The notes under the pieces are model-generated. The model saw only the letters and a list, made by a program, of their open reading frames with translations. It made no database searches and was not told the DNA's origin. From contig DXJO01000004.1 in assembly GCA_019057475.1 (NCBI GenBank), positions 62,001 to 126,000 of the forward strand: a stretch of DNA of 64,000 nt. Direction: 5' to 3'. The DNA comes from Candidatus Thorarchaeota archaeon (lineage in GTDB: Archaea > Asgardarchaeota > Thorarchaeia > Thorarchaeales > Thorarchaeaceae). This document shows positions 4,546-11,800 of the stretch, one piece after another (within the stretch, counting starts at the first letter, position 1; the number at the start of each line of letters is the position of its first letter). A program made the translations under genes and the position numbers.

Positions 4546-5583
4546 GTGGTACGACCCGGTCCAGGCTGTGCTGTTTGGGAGATCACACTGAAGTGCAATC
4601 TGAATTGCATGCATTGCGGCTCCGCAGCTGGAAAAGCACGAAGCGATGAGCTTACCACAGATGAAGCACTGCAACTATGTGATGACCTGAAAGGCATCGG
4701 TTGTCAGGGCGTCGCTATGATGGGTGGCGAGCCACTACTTAGAAAAGATTGGCCATCTATCGCAGAGCGAGTACGCGAAGTAGGCATGGACCTGTCGATT
4801 ATCACTAACGGGTACAAAATCACTGAGAGCAAATTTCAGCGAATCTTCGATGTCAACCCCGAGTTGGTTACAGTAAGTATTGATGGCGGGCACGCCGCTA
4901 TTCATGATACGATACGCGGAGTTCCGGGCTCCTTCAAACAGGTAGTAGCAACTCTTCGCCGACTCGTGAAATCTGGCTTGCCAACTGGTGTCATCACCAC
5001 TGTCCACAAGATGAACCTAGGCGAGCTTCCCACTATCCGAAAATTCTTGCTGGGCACGGGCGTAGCGTGGCAGATACAGATGGCCACGCCCTACGGGCGT
5101 CTTACATATGATCATGTTCTCTCAAAGGAAGAATACTATTCACTGGCTCTATTCATTGCTGCCACCCGGAAGAGGTACTCCAAGAAGGAGCTCATGATTG
5201 CAGGTGCACATGACATGGGCTACTTCTCACGGGTTCTCCCCCCCTTGCAAGTGTATCCGTGGCAAGGCTGTCAAGCTGGCATCTCAACACTTGGGATTGA
5301 GAGCAATGGAAACATCCTTGGGTGTCTTGCATTGCCTCCGGAGTACGTGGAGGGCAACATTCGCGAACGGCCTCTGAAAGAGATCTGGAACGATGACGCT
5401 TTTTCCTCGTACACTCGCAGAGTTCGGCGGACTGACTTGGGCAGCGAGTGCGCCAGCTGTACATACAGTAAGATATGCAAGGGTGGCTGTTCTGCCGTTT
5501 CTCATTCGATGGCAGGTGGACTTCATCGAGATCCATATTGCCTTCGTCTTATTGAAGAGGGACTCAAGAAAAGCAACAGTTGA
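4546..5583 (+). CDS. Radical SAM/SPASM protein, candidate peptide maturase
   Basis: 345 aa, GTG start with a GGAGGG site at 4530-4535; an in-frame TGA at 4537 excludes a longer form. The radical SAM cluster motif CxxxCxxC is at Cys17/21/24, and the SAM-binding GGEP is at 60-63. The C-terminal SPASM domain is complete: Cys242, then G255-x4-C260, then C-x2-C-x5-C-x3-C at 302/305/311/315, and Cys332. This is the seven-cysteine layout of enzymes that carry two auxiliary Fe-S clusters (PqqE, MftC and sactisynthase types). It lies 44 bp upstream of four paralogous small proteins with a conserved C-terminal tail, then a methyltransferase. A role in modifying those tails is inference. Alternatives are a heme-biosynthesis (AhbC/D) type or an enzyme maturase. 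Confidence 0.85.
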   Translation: MVRPGPGCAVWEITLKCNLNCMHCGSAAGKARSDELTTDEALQLCDDLKGIGCQGVAMMGGEPLLRKDWPSIAERVREVGMDLSIITNGYKITESKFQRIFDVNPELVTVSIDGGHAAIHDTIRGVPGSFKQVVATLRRLVKSGLPTGVITTVHKMNLGELPTIRKFLLGTGVAWQIQMATPYGRLTYDHVLSKEEYYSLALFIAATRKRYSKKELMIAGAHDMGYFSRVLPPLQVYPWQGCQAGISTLGIESNGNILGCLALPPEYVEGNIRERPLKEIWNDDAFSSYTRRVRRTDLGSECASCTYSKICKGGCSAVSHSMAGGLHRDPYCLRLIEEGLKKSNS

Positions 5584-5627: not shown

Positions 5628-5993
5628 ATGTCATTGATGGATATGATTCCAGTTGGGATTGAACTACTCCGACTTAGTGGGCGAGACGGCGTGTACGCTA
5701 TTCTATCACGGGTGTTCAAAGCTCAACCGACACCTCTGGCATATAGAAGAAGAATCAGGCCGCTCGGCGCTAGCGTAGGATTGTCAGAGGCTGAGGTTGA
5801 CGAGGTTATTAGCGGGAGTTCTAATGTTACGGTCCTTCCATCTTGGTTGAAGTGGGGTCTTGTTGCTTTCATAGTCGTTGTGTTGATTCTTAGTGCCATC
5901 GCGGTGACCGGGTCGTACGTGCCCTGGTATACGAATCCGACCTACGTTCCAGGTACCGACTATGCAAGCATCAGGCCTAAGGATTTCTTGTAG
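5628..5993 (+). CDS. Small membrane protein, paralogue 1 of 4 (candidate modified-peptide precursor)
   Basis: 121 aa. The N-terminal ~75 residues are predicted soluble and helical, with the family segment LGASVGLSEAEV (~47-58) and VTVLPSWLK before one TM helix (~78-98). A 23-residue tail follows, containing TYVPGTDY and SIRPKDFL at the very end. The tail matches paralogues 2-4 as T-Y-[VL]-P-G-T-x-Y-[AG]-[SA]-I-x-P-[KR]-D-F. No cysteine is present, so thioether chemistry would be impossible. It starts 44 bp after the radical SAM gene, with no clear ribosome site. The family was not recognised; the precursor role is inferred from the neighbours. Confidence 0.75.
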   Translation: MSLMDMIPVGIELLRLSGRDGVYAILSRVFKAQPTPLAYRRRIRPLGASVGLSEAEVDEVISGSSNVTVLPSWLKWGLVAFIVVVLILSAIAVTGSYVPWYTNPTYVPGTDYASIRPKDFL

Positions 5994-6113
5994 GAATGGC
6001 CTATTGAGTTCGTGCATATACCTAAAGATCAAGTGGCATTACGCTATTCAATGAATTATCTCATCCCTTTGCGTTGCGTAAGTTTCTTATTGGAGTTAGT
6101 CTAATGTTCATAC

Positions 6114-6446
6114 ATGCTTCTAGATAAACCTCCCACCGTCGGACTTGACATCCTCCGTACCCGGGGCGGAGAGCGTCTTTACCGATTGATTCTTCGAATT
6201 GCGGGGATTCCAACAGTCAGGGCAATGCCCTCGAAGGAATTAGTGCGTCTTGGAGCCAAGGTCGGGCTTGAAGCGTCGGAGGTTGAACAGGTTGCAGAGA
6301 GCAGACCTGATGTAAATGTGCTTCCCGATTGGTTGAAGGCAATTCTAGCCCTCATTGTGATTGTTGGCTCGTACTATCTGGGGCGAAGAATGACCTATCT
6401 CCCCGGGACGTTGTATGGAGCCATAGGTCCACGGGACTTCTTGTAG
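6114..6446 (+). CDS. Small membrane protein, paralogue 2 of 4 (candidate modified-peptide precursor)
   Basis: 110 aa, the shortest copy. The N-terminal helix region contains LGAKVGLEASEV (~44-55) and VNVLPDWLK (~72-80), both shared with paralogue 1. One TM segment (~81-93) is followed by GRR and the tail TYLPGTLYGAIGPRDFL, which ends the protein. No cysteine. The 3' flank resembles that of paralogue 1 at DNA level (a shared GTAGGAATGG around both stops and a GCATTACGC block 40-60 bp later), which points to duplication. A T-rich TATA-like stretch at about 6082-6091 lies ~25-30 nt ahead of the ATG, consistent with a leaderless transcript. Confidence 0.75.
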   Translation: MLLDKPPTVGLDILRTRGGERLYRLILRIAGIPTVRAMPSKELVRLGAKVGLEASEVEQVAESRPDVNVLPDWLKAILALIVIVGSYYLGRRMTYLPGTLYGAIGPRDFL

Positions 6447-6507
6447 GAATGGTCCAGAGGGTTCATCTGAATAACTTGGAAACTGGCTTGCATTACGCGT
6501 ATCAATA

Positions 6508-6517
6508 GCTTTTATGC
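6508..6517 (+). promoter_or_regulatory. TATA-like box of small-protein paralogue 3
   Basis: GCTTTTATGC is centred about 28 nt before the ATG at 6540, where an archaeal TATA box would place transcription start at or next to the initiation codon. There is no ribosome-binding site in the short interval, as expected for a leaderless mRNA. Confidence 0.45.
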
Positions 6518-6539
6518 TTCGGAGCCCTACCGTCTTCTC

Positions 6540-6923
6540 ATGACTTGGAGGGAATCCATTCTCTATGAACTGAACGCAACTCGCTTTCGACGGCTAGGCG
6601 GGCTTGGAGGGCTCAAAGATTGGGTGTGCGGTTTCTTAGCAACTTCAGTTCTTGATACAGAGAAAGCCGAGCAGTTAGGCGCTCAAGCTGGTCTGACTTC
6701 CGACGAGGTTGGAGCTGTTATGGACGCTCGAATGAGCAGAAAAGAGAGCATCCTGTTCAAGCTGACGGTAGTAGTTTTTACGCTCATAATTGTGGGAGCA
6801 GTTATTATGGCAGACCCATTAGGTGTTTTTGGCCAATACCCCGCCACCAACACCACGTACGTGCCGGGTACGCGCTATGGCAGCATCAGCCCGAAGGACT
6901 TCCAGTGGGGATTCGCACATTAA
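6540..6923 (+). CDS. Small membrane protein, paralogue 3 of 4 (candidate modified-peptide precursor)
   Basis: 127 aa. It starts MTWRESILYEL, closely matching the corrected start of paralogue 4. LGAQAGLTSDEV (~46-57) is the family segment. RKESILFKL introduces a TM helix (~72-92), followed by a ~35-residue tail with TTYVPGTRYGSISPKDF, and unlike the other copies six further residues (QWGFAH). The only cysteine is in the N-terminal region. A good TATA-like box (6508-6517) sits about 28 nt before the ATG, so the mRNA is probably leaderless. It pairs with paralogue 4 as a more recent duplicate; function unknown. Confidence 0.75.
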   Translation: MTWRESILYELNATRFRRLGGLGGLKDWVCGFLATSVLDTEKAEQLGAQAGLTSDEVGAVMDARMSRKESILFKLTVVVFTLIIVGAVIMADPLGVFGQYPATNTTYVPGTRYGSISPKDFQWGFAH

Positions 6924-7000
6924 CACTTGTCGATTATTCAGGGCCAGTCGCTCTACGCCAACCGATAATCTTAACGGCTTTGACCCCATACTATACAACT

Positions 7001-7369
7001 ATGAATTGGATGGAACTCTGTCTGTATCAACTGGATGTGGTTTCTATCCGAGGGAGCCGCCGCTTCCTTGGGCCTATGGAATGGCTTCGCAGTTTCTTGA
7101 CAAAACCAGTCCTTGGGTCAGAGAAGATCGAGCTGCTCGGTGCTCAAGCAGGTCTCGAACCCAATGAGGCTCGAGACGCAGTAAGCATGCCCGCAAGCAA
7201 GGGTGAGAGCATAGTGTTCAAGCTGGTTGTGGGGATTGTGCTTTTCTCAATCTTGATTTCGATTGTGATTATGAGCCCAATAGGCGCCTACATCAATCAG
7301 GAGCTCTTCAACACAACTTACCTGCCAGGGACACTCTATGGAAGCATCAGTCCGAAAGACTTCAGGTAA
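7001..7369 (+). CDS. Small membrane protein, paralogue 4 of 4 (candidate modified-peptide precursor)
   Basis: 122 aa from the ATG at 7001. The frame is open upstream to 6905, but alignment to paralogue 3 (MNWMELCLYQL versus MTWRESILYEL) fixes the start here. LGAQAGLEPNEA (~47-58), KGESIVFKL, and a TM helix (~72-92) are followed by the tail TTYLPGTLYGSISPKDFR ending the protein. The stop is 5 nt ahead of the methyltransferase ATG, so these two are very likely cotranscribed. As in the other copies, the tail carries two conserved Tyr, a Pro-Gly-Thr turn, and a terminal Pro-Lys-Asp-Phe, and has no cysteine. Confidence 0.75.
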   Translation: MNWMELCLYQLDVVSIRGSRRFLGPMEWLRSFLTKPVLGSEKIELLGAQAGLEPNEARDAVSMPASKGESIVFKLVVGIVLFSILISIVIMSPIGAYINQELFNTTYLPGTLYGSISPKDFR

Positions 7370-7374
7370 GCACG

Positions 7375-8688
7375 ATGCGAATCCACGTGGGCTGCGGCCC
7401 GGTCTACAAGAAGGGCTACGTCAACATTGACGTCTTTGATCCTACTGTTGCAGATCGTATCATGTCTGCATATCATCTGGAATTTCCCGATGACTCAGCA
7501 AGTCTTGTGGAGTGTATGCACACTCTCGAACACCTGGGTGCAGCGAAGAGCATCTATGCATTGGCTGAATTCTTTCGCGTATTGAAACCTGGGGGTGTCT
7601 TACTTCTGGAAATCCCAGACATAGAAGCAACCTTTGCAAACTTTCTCAAGCACGGGGAAAAACAAAGGAAGCTCCTAATGAACTGGATCTACGGCTTAGA
7701 TTCGCCAGGGATGGGCCATCGCTACTGCTTCCCCCGGGAACTGCTCAGTCGCATGTTGAAAGAGTCTGGGTTCAAAGATATCCTGTTGAAGCGGCTCGCG
7801 ACCAAATCTATCCAACCATCATTGCGGGTCAAGTGCAGGAAACCTGAATCGTATATTGCCCATCAGATTATTTCACGTGTACGACGTTCTCTGGTAGACA
7901 ATGGCCTAGTTGATCTTGATGACCAAGTCAGTGCACTTGACCGCGAAACTCTCATCCAATCTCTTGCTTCACTGACACATCAGCTGTGTGCCAAATGGGA
8001 TGAACTGGCGCTAAGGCAGATGACCATAGAATCAGCGGTGCAGAATCCGCGAATGGGGTTGGCTTTCATCGAGCAACTTGAGAGCCAGGTTTCTGAGTCG
8101 GCTTCTCGGGTGAAGAGGTATGGGCGGATTCTCGAAACACTGGGGTCTCTTGACTTCCCTGCAGTTTTGTTGCATCTACTTATGCAGGTTCCTCCACAGG
8201 TAGGAACTCAGAACCAGACGTACCTGACTGTCCGAAATATGGGGGTTGCCACTGTCAAGAAGCTTCTTGCAGGAAAGGAAGAACAGGCAGTCTCGAAGGA
8301 GCTGCGACGAACACGTGCGGCGTTGTCTGGCGATAAAATTCTGAGCCACTTCTCTGAAGAAGGAGTGAAGCGCCTTGCAGAGCAGAGTTTCGCTCACGGT
8401 GCAAAAGCTTTTGCTAATCATGAACTAACTGAGGCCGTTCGATTGTTCGAAGAGGCGTTCAGTCTTAATCGTGATGATCTTCTTATTACATGGAACCTAG
8501 CGCGTCTGAAGGCGATCGAAGGAAAAGGAGATACGTCAAAGAAGTACTATGAAATGACTTCCTTGCTTGCCCAACGCTACAAGCAACCCTTCCGTCGAAG
8601 GATGCTCGAGCGGCTTCGCTCTGAAATCAGTCTTGCATCCGAGGGCCAGATGGATGGCCTAGCAGCACCAGTCTACCAGGCCTTCTAG
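7375..8688 (+). CDS. SAM-dependent methyltransferase with helical/TPR-like C-terminus
   Basis: 437 aa. The N-terminal ~150 residues are a class I (type 11) methyltransferase: motif I HVGCG (4-8), GYVNID acidic strand (~14-19), HTLEHL (~49-54), and FFRVLKPGGVLLLEIP (~66-81). A long helical linker follows, and residues ~340-400 form a TPR-like pair (AKAFANHELTEAVRLFEEA...LLITWNLARLKAIEGK), suggesting a protein or peptide substrate. It begins 5 nt after paralogue 4, so it probably belongs to the radical SAM cluster as a second modifying enzyme; that is inference. Related orphan methyltransferases also act on glycans or lipids. Confidence 0.8.
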   Translation: MRIHVGCGPVYKKGYVNIDVFDPTVADRIMSAYHLEFPDDSASLVECMHTLEHLGAAKSIYALAEFFRVLKPGGVLLLEIPDIEATFANFLKHGEKQRKLLMNWIYGLDSPGMGHRYCFPRELLSRMLKESGFKDILLKRLATKSIQPSLRVKCRKPESYIAHQIISRVRRSLVDNGLVDLDDQVSALDRETLIQSLASLTHQLCAKWDELALRQMTIESAVQNPRMGLAFIEQLESQVSESASRVKRYGRILETLGSLDFPAVLLHLLMQVPPQVGTQNQTYLTVRNMGVATVKKLLAGKEEQAVSKELRRTRAALSGDKILSHFSEEGVKRLAEQSFAHGAKAFANHELTEAVRLFEEAFSLNRDDLLITWNLARLKAIEGKGDTSKKYYEMTSLLAQRYKQPFRRRMLERLRSEISLASEGQMDGLAAPVYQAF

Positions 8689-8712: not shown

Positions 8713-9717
8713 CTACAGCTTCTTTGCTATTAACGCTGCCAAATCAGCTAGGCGATGTGCGTAGCCTGCCTCATTGTCATACCAGCCAAGAACCTTTACC
8801 ATATTCCCCTGAGTCATCGTCGCAAGGGAGTCAAAAGAGCAGGAATCTGTATCGTTAATGAAGTCGGATGAAACAAGCGGCTCGTCAACGTACCCTAGAT
8901 ACGGAGCCATATCTCCCTTCTCGGAGGCTTTCTTGAATGCCGCATTGACAACGTCTACAGTTACTTCCTTGTCAACCTCAGCAACCAAGTCGACCAACGA
9001 AACGTCCATCAATGGAACTCTGATTGCCATGCCGTTCAACCGGCCGACCATTTTTGGATAGACCAGACCGATAGCTTTGGCAGCTCCGGTGGTCGTGGGG
9101 ATCATGTTCCATGCTCCAGCTCTGGCCCTTCTGAGGTCCTTATGCCACATGTCTAACATCCGTTGATCGTTTGTCACGGCGTGAATTGTGGTCATCAAGC
9201 CTGTTTCAAGTCCGAAGTTCTGGTCCAGAACCTTGACCAGTGGAGCAAGGCAGTTTGTGGTGCAGGAGGCGTTGGAGATAACGTGATGCTTTGAGGAGTC
9301 ATAATCGCCATCATTAACGCCAAGCACGACGGTGAACATCTCGCCACTGCCGGGGGCACTTATCACGACCTTCTTGGCTCCTGCAGTGAGATGTTTCTCT
9401 GCGTCTTCCCGTTTTCTGAAAAAGCCGGTACACTCCATCACGATGTCAATGCCCATCTCCTTCCATGGAAGCTTAGCAGGATCCCTCTCGGAAAGAATCT
9501 TGACCTCTTTGCCGTTGACAGTTATGCTTCCCTTCTCATACTCAACAGTACCGTCGAATCTGCCCATGACGGTATCGTACTTGAGGAGGTGGGCATTGGT
9601 GTGTTCGTCAGTGAGGTCATTTGCTGCTACGACTTCAAACTCTTTACTCTTCAACGCAGCCTTGAGAAAGCCACGTCCTATTCTTCCAAAACCGTTGATA
9701 GCTACTCTCGCAGTCAT
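8713..9717 (-). CDS. gap: Glyceraldehyde-3-phosphate dehydrogenase, bacterial (class I) type
   Basis: 334 aa, starting at the ATG whose product reads MTARVAINGFGRIGR; an AGAAGGG ribosome site precedes it, so the longer open frame to 9843 is not real. NAD-binding motif INGFGRIGR (7-15), Asp34 after the second strand (an NAD preference marker), active-site SNASCTTNC with Cys152, and base His in TTIHAVTND (~179) are all present, as is the C-terminal WYDNEAGYA. It catalyses G3P + Pi + NAD to 1,3-bisphosphoglycerate. Most archaea carry the distant type II enzyme, so this class I form is probably bacterial in origin. It is convergent with the methyltransferase gene. Confidence 0.95.
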   Translation of the reverse strand: MTARVAINGFGRIGRGFLKAALKSKEFEVVAANDLTDEHTNAHLLKYDTVMGRFDGTVEYEKGSITVNGKEVKILSERDPAKLPWKEMGIDIVMECTGFFRKREDAEKHLTAGAKKVVISAPGSGEMFTVVLGVNDGDYDSSKHHVISNASCTTNCLAPLVKVLDQNFGLETGLMTTIHAVTNDQRMLDMWHKDLRRARAGAWNMIPTTTGAAKAIGLVYPKMVGRLNGMAIRVPLMDVSLVDLVAEVDKEVTVDVVNAAFKKASEKGDMAPYLGYVDEPLVSSDFINDTDSCSFDSLATMTQGNMVKVLGWYDNEAGYAHRLADLAALIAKKL

Positions 9718-9946
9718 ATTGTAGCACCCTTCTGCGCCTGCTCGTAGTGTTCGCCTATATTGTTTGCTATCAAACCAAGTACCTCCGCATACAAAGGAAA
9801 GATGGGTGCGCCTTGGACAATATGTAAGGTCTTCAGCTGTCACATCTCAAATGACACTTCAACTAGTCCATCCTGTTTGTTTTGCTATTCGATTGATTTT
9901 TATCAGCGATAAGCAATGGTAATCGAAACGTGAAGGGGAAACAGTA

Positions 9947-11800
9947 TTGAGCAAAGAACGGAAGAAGAAAGAAGACATCTCTTTGGAAGATCTGATAGCT
10001 CTACCTGTCCAGTTCATGGGCAACCCTGGTAGAACTAGTCGAAGAATATGCTTTGCATCAAATAAGACTGGCCGAATGGAATTACATTTACTTGATCTTG
10101 AAACGCAAGAGTTCTCTCAACTATCAAATGGTGAGTATCCAATATCTCCAGTGGGTTGGCATAAATGGGCTCCAGATGACACATATCTCCTATTTCCTAA
10201 GGACCCAATTCAGGGAAATGAGAAGAATGACATCTACAAAATATCAGTCCCAGATGGAAGAGTAACGCAAATTACCAATACTCCTGAATCCAGCGATGAC
10301 TTGGGAGAGGTTAGCCATGATGGGAAATGGATTGTCTTCCGCTCCGATCGTGTTGAGGGTATTGATCAACTGTTCAGAATGCGCCCTGATGGAACGGAAG
10401 TCACGCAGCTCACAGAGCATACCCGCCCGATTTCATTCTGGTCAGATGTTAGTATATCCCCAGATGATGAGTGGATTGCTTATACTGCAAATGAATCAGA
10501 GAATCTCCAGAATATCGATGTATGGGTTGTGAAAATGGATGGTTCTGATAGGAAGAAGCTCTTTGGAGTCCAAGATGGATCAAAGGAGTTGGTTCGGGCT
10601 TGGTCACGCGATGGTACTATGTTATTAGTATCATCTGACTATGCGGGGACTGACCAAGCTGGAGTTTATTTCCTGAACTCAGGTAATGTGAAATGGTTTG
10701 GAGAAGCAAGTGCTCCTGAGTCACCAGTGAAATTCACTGCTGATGGTAAACAAATCATAGTTGGACGTGACATTGATGCTGAGCAGAAACTTCTCCTCTA
10801 TGATATAAAAACTGGAGAGGAAACCACACTCGATATCCCCTCTGGATTTGCAGGTGCAGTATACACTACATTTGACGGAAATCATCTACTTGTGGGTCAT
10901 CAAGACTCGACCCATCGAATGCGTTTCATACTATACGATCTCATCAAGCATTCCTTTGAAGAGGTCATCCCTGCAGAGTATGGGAGATTTTCTCCTGAAG
11001 ATTTCCTCCCAGATGAATACATCAGCTATCCTTCTGGTGACACGACGGTTCATGCGATTCTATACAGGCCAAAGAATCTCAAGCGTGGTGTGAAGCTACC
11101 TGCTATCGTAGTACCCCATGGAGGTCCTACTGGACACTATATCCGCGTCTTCCTTGATGATGCTCAGGTACTTGCAAATGAAGGATATGTCTTATTGTAC
11201 CCGAATGTAAGAGGATCCACAGGATATGGTGTAGAATTCAGAGATGCATGTCTGAATGACTGGGGGGGCAAGGATCTTGATGACGTTGAGGCTGGGGTTG
11301 AGTATCTACGTAGTCTAGATTATGTGAATCCTGACCGAATAGGAATACATGGTGGTAGCTATGGAGGTTATTTGACATTCATGGCTGTCACAAAAAAGCC
11401 AGACCTCTGGAAAGCAGCCTCAGCTTGGATGGGAATCACTTCATTAAAGCATCTCCACGAGAAGTGCAAGGAAACATTCCCGGCTCTGCCATATTACCTT
11501 GAGGAGCAGATGGGCAAACCTGAGGACGAAGGAGTTCTTGAACTATGGGAAGACAGAAGCGCAATCAACTTCGTGAAGAATATGTCCGCCAAGCTTCAAA
11601 TGATTCATGCTGAGAACGACCCGCGATGTCCCATCGAGCAGTCTGAGATGTTCAGAGACCGATTAGTCGAATTGGGACGAAAAGAGGGAGAAGACTTCGA
11701 GTATGTCCATCTAACAGAAGAGGGACACGGGTCATTCGATAAAGACCAACGCGTACGGATGATGCGTCACGTCTTTGACTTCTTTAATCGAAACCTCTGA
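9947..11800 (+). CDS. S9-family serine peptidase (prolyl oligopeptidase/acylaminoacyl peptidase type)
   Basis: 617 aa, TTG start with a GAAGGGG ribosome site 7-8 nt upstream. Residues ~25-340 are repeats of a beta-propeller (recurring D-G-T, SPDDEWIAY and SxDG motifs). The C-terminal alpha/beta hydrolase has HGGPTGHY (oxyanion), nucleophile GGSYGG near residue 470, Asp in HAENDPRCP (~555) and His in EEGHGS (~590), so the triad is complete. No signal peptide, hence cytoplasmic oligopeptide cleavage, consistent with two peptide importers downstream. The DNA is visibly AT-richer than the genes on either side. A hairpin follows the stop. Confidence 0.92.
   Translation: MSKERKKKEDISLEDLIALPVQFMGNPGRTSRRICFASNKTGRMELHLLDLETQEFSQLSNGEYPISPVGWHKWAPDDTYLLFPKDPIQGNEKNDIYKISVPDGRVTQITNTPESSDDLGEVSHDGKWIVFRSDRVEGIDQLFRMRPDGTEVTQLTEHTRPISFWSDVSISPDDEWIAYTANESENLQNIDVWVVKMDGSDRKKLFGVQDGSKELVRAWSRDGTMLLVSSDYAGTDQAGVYFLNSGNVKWFGEASAPESPVKFTADGKQIIVGRDIDAEQKLLLYDIKTGEETTLDIPSGFAGAVYTTFDGNHLLVGHQDSTHRMRFILYDLIKHSFEEVIPAEYGRFSPEDFLPDEYISYPSGDTTVHAILYRPKNLKRGVKLPAIVVPHGGPTGHYIRVFLDDAQVLANEGYVLLYPNVRGSTGYGVEFRDACLNDWGGKDLDDVEAGVEYLRSLDYVNPDRIGIHGGSYGGYLTFMAVTKKPDLWKAASAWMGITSLKHLHEKCKETFPALPYYLEEQMGKPEDEGVLELWEDRSAINFVKNMSAKLQMIHAENDPRCPIEQSEMFRDRLVELGRKEGEDFEYVHLTEEGHGSFDKDQRVRMMRHVFDFFNRNL

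Follow-up and report, generated by a model that had tools for sequence, protein, structure and literature searches.

The window, a stretch of 64,000 nucleotides from a Thorarchaeota genome of 3.34 Mb, encodes a RiPP-type system in which precursors with a conserved leader and a conserved core stand beside a peptide-modifying enzyme. The core, a tail at the C-terminal end of four small proteins, is very probably the substrate of the adjacent radical SAM/SPASM enzyme. All genes of the cassette are on the plus strand: the radical SAM/SPASM maturase (4546..5583, 345 aa) is followed by precursor 1 (5628..5993, 121 aa), precursor 2 (6114..6446, 110 aa), precursor 3 (6540..6923, 127 aa), precursor 4 (7001..7369, 122 aa) and a SAM-dependent methyltransferase (7375..8688), whose predicted structure consists of a Rossmann domain and a long all-helical (TPR-like) C-terminal half. 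Precursor 4 most likely starts at the ATG at 7001 rather than at the GTG at 6905, since the latter falls within the third open reading frame. Pfam, NCBIfam and PHROGs contained no family for the precursors, apart from the Kunitz domains of the bacterial ones. The methyltransferase may act on the same tail or on its product.

As the preliminary description had reported, the motif T-Y-[VL]-P-G-T-x-Y-[AG]-[SA]-I-x-P-[KR]-D-F is found at the C-terminal end of all four small proteins. With the second tyrosine called Tyr 0 and the residue before it X, this residue is Asp in precursor 1 (DYA, tail 5940-5987), Leu in precursor 2 (LYG, 6393-6440), Arg in precursor 3 (RYG, 6855-6902, with six residues after DF) and Leu in precursor 4 (LYG, 7316-7363). 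The N-terminal parts had been described as divergent, which holds outside the motifs, where the pooled pairwise identity is 51/270 upstream of the leader and 59/234 between leader and tail (19-25%), but not for a leader motif, LGAxxGLxxxE, which begins at residue 46 in each precursor (5763-5798, 6249-6284, 6675-6710 and 7136-7171). The identity is 76% in the tail (73/96) and 60% in the leader (43/72). A hydrophobic stretch of 19 residues, at approximately residues 77-95, 67-85, 71-89 and 72-90 of precursors 1-4, ends 25-38 residues short of the C-terminus, with Kyte-Doolittle maxima of 2.73, 1.86, 2.74 and 2.87, the second of which is borderline. The flanking charges give three of these proteins a positive-inside bias, though a weak one. 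Because tail and leader are both conserved, the four proteins appear to be two-part substrates, with a leader, a core and a transmembrane helix between them, and the leader motif near residue 46 would probably recruit the enzyme. The DNA pattern Y[VL]PGT is by itself weak evidence, as it has four matches in the genome, all at the cassette, versus five for the reversed control.

A close homolog of the enzyme (E <= 2.4e-57) is present in 12 of 59 related genomes, and an HMM built from the four precursors identified precursors in 11 of them. The exception is G008, whose contig stops within the enzyme gene. The remaining 47 genomes yielded no precursor. A profile scan of genome contigs with the enzyme alignment yielded a set of 80 loci from Thorarchaeota and a Hermod genome, Lokiarchaeota, Thermoplasmatota, Elusimicrobia, and Geobacter-, Syntrophus- and Nitrospiraceae-type bacteria, of which four (L088, L090, L132 and L137) showed no enzyme ORF by the search pattern. 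A tail near the enzyme was identified in 67 of the 80 loci by HMM (E < 5) and in another four by eye; the tails of L101, L102 and L138, which have no HMM match, were read by eye. Truncation accounts for L076, L119 and L137, while L092, L094, L097, L116 and L118 contain the enzyme and no tail in the locus DNA examined. A precursor that had lost the tail and kept its N-terminus was sought in all 80 loci and seen only in L108, which retains the leader and a lipobox. A methyltransferase-like protein is present at 64 of the 80 loci. In the open-licence literature we found no report on such a cassette in archaea or Elusimicrobia, and part of it may be in print. In one locus from another family of the phylum, L055 (G040:C101, ~22-24 kb), the enzyme is split or frameshifted into two overlapping pieces that lie beside two tail proteins.

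The tail is no chance resemblance: an HMM of its 18 columns scores most relatives at approximately 1e-5 to 1e-10. The leader HMM matches 129 of 145 tail rows (E < 0.01), which include one spurious tail and duplicates from the same genomes. The counts that follow refer to 115 unique tails, without L050-L053 (from the same genomes as L066, L068, L073 and L075) and without rows of E >= 5, hence without the tail of L109. Tyr 0 is present in 115/115, although the search pattern demanded a tyrosine; L080:5365, the single genuine match that did not fit the pattern, carries it too. Phe+8 is found in 110, Asp or Glu at +7 in 112, Gly-3 in 105 and Tyr-6 in 100 of these tails, and [ST]+2 and [VI]+3 are conserved as well. 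The residue after Tyr 0 is G in 46, S in 38, Y in 15, A in 10 and F in 6 tails, so that the centre is x-Y-[GASYF]. A strict xYG reading was relaxed in view of the xYS tails of Lokiarchaeota and the RYY/RYF tails of Elusimicrobia, in which Y or F always follows the tyrosine. The absence of cysteine, put forward earlier as a property of the tail, applies to the four tails in the window but is not general, as illustrated by YPCGT in Elusimicrobia and SICPKDF in L062.

In the Thermoplasmatota locus L077, the core itself is repeated within single proteins: the precursors at L077:4494-4751 and L077:7367-7648 have two and three tandem cores, respectively, as in VYKAGTEYGTVSTKD-VYKAGTYYGTVSSKD-LYKAGTYYGTISVKDF, and in the three-core protein the cores differ at X. 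Core repetition, the variety of host proteins and the strict co-occurrence with the enzyme indicate that the tail is the likely modified core, and short precursors that lack a transmembrane helix, together with the tandem repeats, likely mark it as the modification site. The proposal that the SPASM enzyme acts on the tail is thus borne out as the likely case, with the invariant tyrosine as the best candidate residue.

The host proteins differ among clades. A transmembrane helix (hydropathy >= 1.9) is present in 39 of 42 rows from Thorarchaeota and 41 of 42 from Lokiarchaeota, but in 0/18 precursors from Thermoplasmatota, which have a median length of 67 aa. The late transmembrane helix noted in the preliminary description is therefore seen in all four proteins of the window, the borderline second one included, and is not a general property. 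Bacterial precursors instead have an N-terminal signal or lipobox followed by a long spacer; a lipobox-like cysteine follows the leader in most Elusimicrobia-type precursors, and 25 of 29 bacterial rows have one by a loose pattern. The suggestion that a late helix gives a cytosolic enzyme time to act fits Thorarchaeota and Lokiarchaeota, but neither the Thermoplasmatota precursors nor the bacterial ones. The helix, or in bacteria the lipobox or signal peptide, would then display the tail outside the cell. Three Thermoplasmatota cassettes also encode a protein of 461 aa (L078:3519-4904, L080:3592-4977 and L081:5190-6575) with a weak similarity to AMP-binding enzymes (PF00501, E 6e-4, one member scanned), and these cassettes carry two or three enzyme paralogs.

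The enzyme contains the CxxxCxxC motif and a seven-cysteine SPASM motif, and C17/C21/C24 as well as C242, C260, C302, C305, C311, C315 and C332 are invariant among 29 family rows and also among 30 rows that include sister families. Its best NCBIfam match is TIGR04103, which we equate with IPR026482 and take to be the family of PlpX, a splicease that excises tyramine at XYG. By score it is a member of neither TIGR04103 (227.9 bits, far below the cut-off of 725) nor TIGR03913 (211.9 bits, far below 591.75), and these two families, again well below cut-off, were the best matches of all four clade representatives scanned. In a careful tree of 48 rows, the family grouped with one Nostoc TIGR04103 enzyme, which stands for TIGR04103 in place of PlpX itself, three TIGR03913-type enzymes and two relatives with a support of 100/99, and the family itself formed one clade (98/98). 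The other 14 SPASM references stayed apart, including types that match heme-pathway models and PqqE and MftC (one reference each); the kinship with the PQQ and mycofactocin systems that had been considered for the enzyme is thus not upheld. For these analyses, the 87 enzyme rows were reduced to 61 for a quick tree of 82 rows, which agrees with the careful one, and to 28 for the careful tree, from which the reference Tropicibacter 2743 was omitted. Consistently, the motifs HCGS (86/87), WQxQ (86/87) and WxGCxAG (87/87) of the family occur in 6/6 references on the TIGR04103/TIGR03913 side and in 0/15 other references.

An AlphaFold2 model of the enzyme (pLDDT 92.7) has the fold of a SPASM maturase, and its nearest structure is SuiB, the streptide maturase (Z 28.2, rmsd 3.1, 318 residues aligned), followed by SkfB (Z 26.9). 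The match starts at residue 96 of SuiB, the N-terminal part of which has no counterpart here, and both solved maturases differ from the enzyme in chemistry and in sequence clade. The best among 1000 re-aligned chains were SuiB, SkfB, a sactipeptide maturase and anSME, with no splicease structure among them, which carries no weight against a splicease, and SkfB also came first when the PDB was searched by sequence with the Nostoc enzyme. A PlpY-like RRE partner was not found in the cassette with Pfam, NCBIfam and the models of the enzyme and the methyltransferase. An RRE fused to the methyltransferase was ruled out by the model of the latter.

Spliceotide cassettes are the closest known systems in several respects. 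According to PMC11002830, the prototype splicease PlpX (IPR026482) from Pleurocapsa works with an RRE partner, PlpY, on Nif11/NHLP precursors. The Nostoc TIGR04103 (nif11-class peptide radical SAM maturase 3) cassette resembles that of PlpX, with a Nif11 precursor that ends in IALYGLPPELF, the enzyme and a partner of 71 aa. Our cassette shares with these systems an enzyme of the same clade with the same three motifs and a substrate centre near the C-terminus that resembles X-Tyr-Gly, as in the LYGLPPELF of Nostoc. It differs in that the enzyme falls below the family cut-off, the precursors have no Nif11/NHLP leader, a PlpY-like partner was not found, G, A, S, Y or F follows the tyrosine, the hosts are membrane-anchored proteins or lipoproteins, the partner is a methyltransferase, and the cassette is present mainly in archaea and Elusimicrobia.

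That the cassette works like a spliceotide cassette, in chemistry and in function, is what we infer from the features observed, namely the cassette, the two-part substrate, the tandem cores, the enzyme clade, the invariant tyrosine, the excess variation at X and the Kunitz fusions. We judge the chances to be even that the enzyme excises tyramine at the X-Tyr of the tail. It would act at X-Tyr-(Gly/Ala), and the excision (loss of C8H9NO at the tyrosine) would leave a ketoamide. Splicing at X-Tyr deletes most of the tyrosine and leaves the X side chain in place, and PlpXY uses MYG and LYG substrates and also accepts GYG (PMC10533398). Since X is retained, it would be the variable that the cell can tune. 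A function of the tail as protease inhibitor is plausible, if somewhat less than an even prospect: protease inhibition by spliceotide products is reported in PMC11117315, so that X would correspond to P1, and a set of basic and hydrophobic residues would be expected against trypsin- and chymotrypsin-like enzymes. The ketoamide would then be the warhead that binds proteases covalently, X would contribute the P1 side chain, and each cassette would supply a few inhibitors that differ in specificity.

The variation at X is consistent with this proposal. Among 29 non-redundant loci with at least two tails, 67 of the 75 pairs of tails from one locus differ at X, versus 57.4 expected from shuffles within clades (P 0.0002), where the shuffle P values are optimistic because the loci are related. 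These statistics omit five near-copies from the window's genus (L061-L065) and loci with half of their tails in common with a retained locus, which leaves 57 loci, 29 of them with two or more tails. X is the sole column of 16 with a significant excess of variation among paralogs; the next lowest P is 0.11, at +4, and several columns are in deficit. The excess is seen in Thorarchaeota (16/17 versus 12.6, P 0.023) and Lokiarchaeota (30/35 versus 25.6, P 0.025) and is not significant in Thermoplasmatota alone (20/22 versus 18.1, P 0.18). Both a basic (Arg/Lys) and a hydrophobic X occur in 23 of the 29 multi-tail loci, versus 16.9 expected (P 0.0032). Within the window's genus, the residues Asp, Leu, Arg and Leu are kept across species and differ among paralogs. 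The single-tail loci of Elusimicrobia-type and other bacteria have Arg or Lys at X in 23/23 cases.

A Kunitz domain (PF00014), identified with Pfam (E 6e-15 to 1e-3, with one match that falls short of the Pfam cut-off), precedes the tail in all seven Geobacter/Syntrophus-type tail proteins scanned, while none was found among the archaeal precursors scanned. Its P1, presumably the residue that follows the second cysteine and read here with a simple sequence pattern, is Lys in 7/7, and X in the tails of the same proteins is Lys in six and Arg in one. Fusions to BPTI-like inhibitors with Lys at P1 and Lys or Arg at X lend support to X as a putative P1. Other observations count against splicing: the residue after the tyrosine is not strictly Gly, the family scores are low and an RRE was not found. 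Splicing alone leaves the conserved Tyr-6, Gly-3, Asp+7 and Phe+8 unexplained, of which Tyr-6, Asp+7 and Phe+8 may serve in recognition or as a target of the methyltransferase. Furthermore, the Asp at X in precursor 1 is unlike the usual P1 residues, and the tail-less L108, with its leader and lipobox, as well as the five further tail-less loci, argue against splicing of the tail.

The same conserved positions could instead reflect another change centred on the tyrosine, for instance a cross-link (C-C or ether) to Thr/Ser+2, Val/Ile+3 or Asp+7, with the methyltransferase capping the product. This would account for the conservation of Tyr-6, Gly-3, [ST]+2, [VI]+3, [DE]+7 and F+8 beyond the needs of splicing, for the variable residue after the tyrosine and for an enzyme below the TIGR04103 cut-off, and SuiB and SkfB as best structural matches agree with it as evidence from the fold only. 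We nevertheless regard a cross-link as unlikely, though by no means negligible, because the enzyme groups with the splicease-type families and the column with excess variation is precisely X, which is retained and homologised in splicing. A thioether of the sactipeptide or ranthipeptide type, suggested by the cysteine in Elusimicrobia tails (CGPYPGYPCGTRYYTVS) and by the ability of SPASM enzymes to form thioethers, has next to no probability: cysteine is absent from nearly all archaeal tails that share this conserved centre, those in the window included, and the enzyme belongs to a different clade.

If the enzyme had another target, the unmodified tail could be a docking or sorting signal, as the transmembrane helix precedes the tail in Thorarchaeota and Lokiarchaeota and the strong conservation of DF could mean recognition. 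The tandem repeats within one protein, the precursors without a helix and the fact that the tail strictly accompanies an enzyme of a peptide-modifying type make this very unlikely. Moreover, known sorting signals that contain a transmembrane helix have their elements in the opposite order, and a PEP-CTERM-like signal was ruled out on two grounds: the helix, where there is one, lies on the N-terminal side of the tail, and L077 has tandem copies of the tail. A route from the tail tyrosine to a small redox cofactor, as in PQQ or mycofactocin, would also use a SPASM enzyme, and the enzyme has some similarity to the mycofact_rSAM (141 bits) and PqqE (96 bits) models, both below cut-off. It is nonetheless highly improbable, since the enzyme lies outside the PqqE/MftC clades and the Kunitz and lipoprotein hosts are ill-suited to a released cofactor; among the six cassette proteins, Pfam and NCBIfam detected no other protein of such a pathway, apart from the methyltransferase, which partially matches MftM (E 0.0018).

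Taken together with the Kunitz fusions, tyramine excision at X-Tyr leads to a joint reading that we offer tentatively and with some doubt: a family of protease inhibitors common to archaea and bacteria, displayed at the cell surface and given its warhead by protein splicing, whose paralogs keep the splice tyrosine and diversify X into a P1 repertoire of basic and hydrophobic residues. Its forms would be the short peptides of Thermoplasmatota, the membrane-anchored proteins of Asgard archaea, the lipoproteins of Elusimicrobia and the Kunitz fusions of the Geobacter type. If so, Asgard archaea would make ketoamide-bearing, backbone-edited proteins and edit membrane proteins of their own, while spliceotides are described as bacterial in the literature consulted. 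A single evolutionary signature, an invariant tyrosine preceded by a diversified residue, would reveal both the residue kept by the chemistry and the purpose of the product. Spliceotides would also be linked to host proteins that bear inhibitor domains of their own, and the biological role of ketoamides would be directly testable with a precursor of 57 residues.

The sister enzymes of TIGR03913 belong to a GDL-motif (DUF1843) system in which each locus encodes two or three paralogous peptides; these resemble the tails in having x-Y-[GAM] with a variable x (MLYGG, KPYGV, PMYMA, VLYAA, PMYAA and QPYGA). Their motif lies near the N-terminus, no transmembrane helix is evident and the peptide sequences are unrelated. 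In the wider clade, an enzyme on an Agathobacter plasmid (L143:5193-7137) is encoded next to ribosomal genes and an MFS transporter, and no tail protein is evident there. In the Nitrospiraceae locus L100, a second radical SAM/SPASM-like ORF (8871-10453, recognized by eye) lies a few kb from the first cassette and is followed by an ORF of 72 aa with YGARDYTVVAASDF, which resembles the Y...DF end of the tail. The neighbours of a TIGR03913-like enzyme on a Tropicibacter plasmid (L145:2743-9380) include another radical SAM protein as well as a phosphotransferase, a trypsin-like peptidase and an M23 peptidase.
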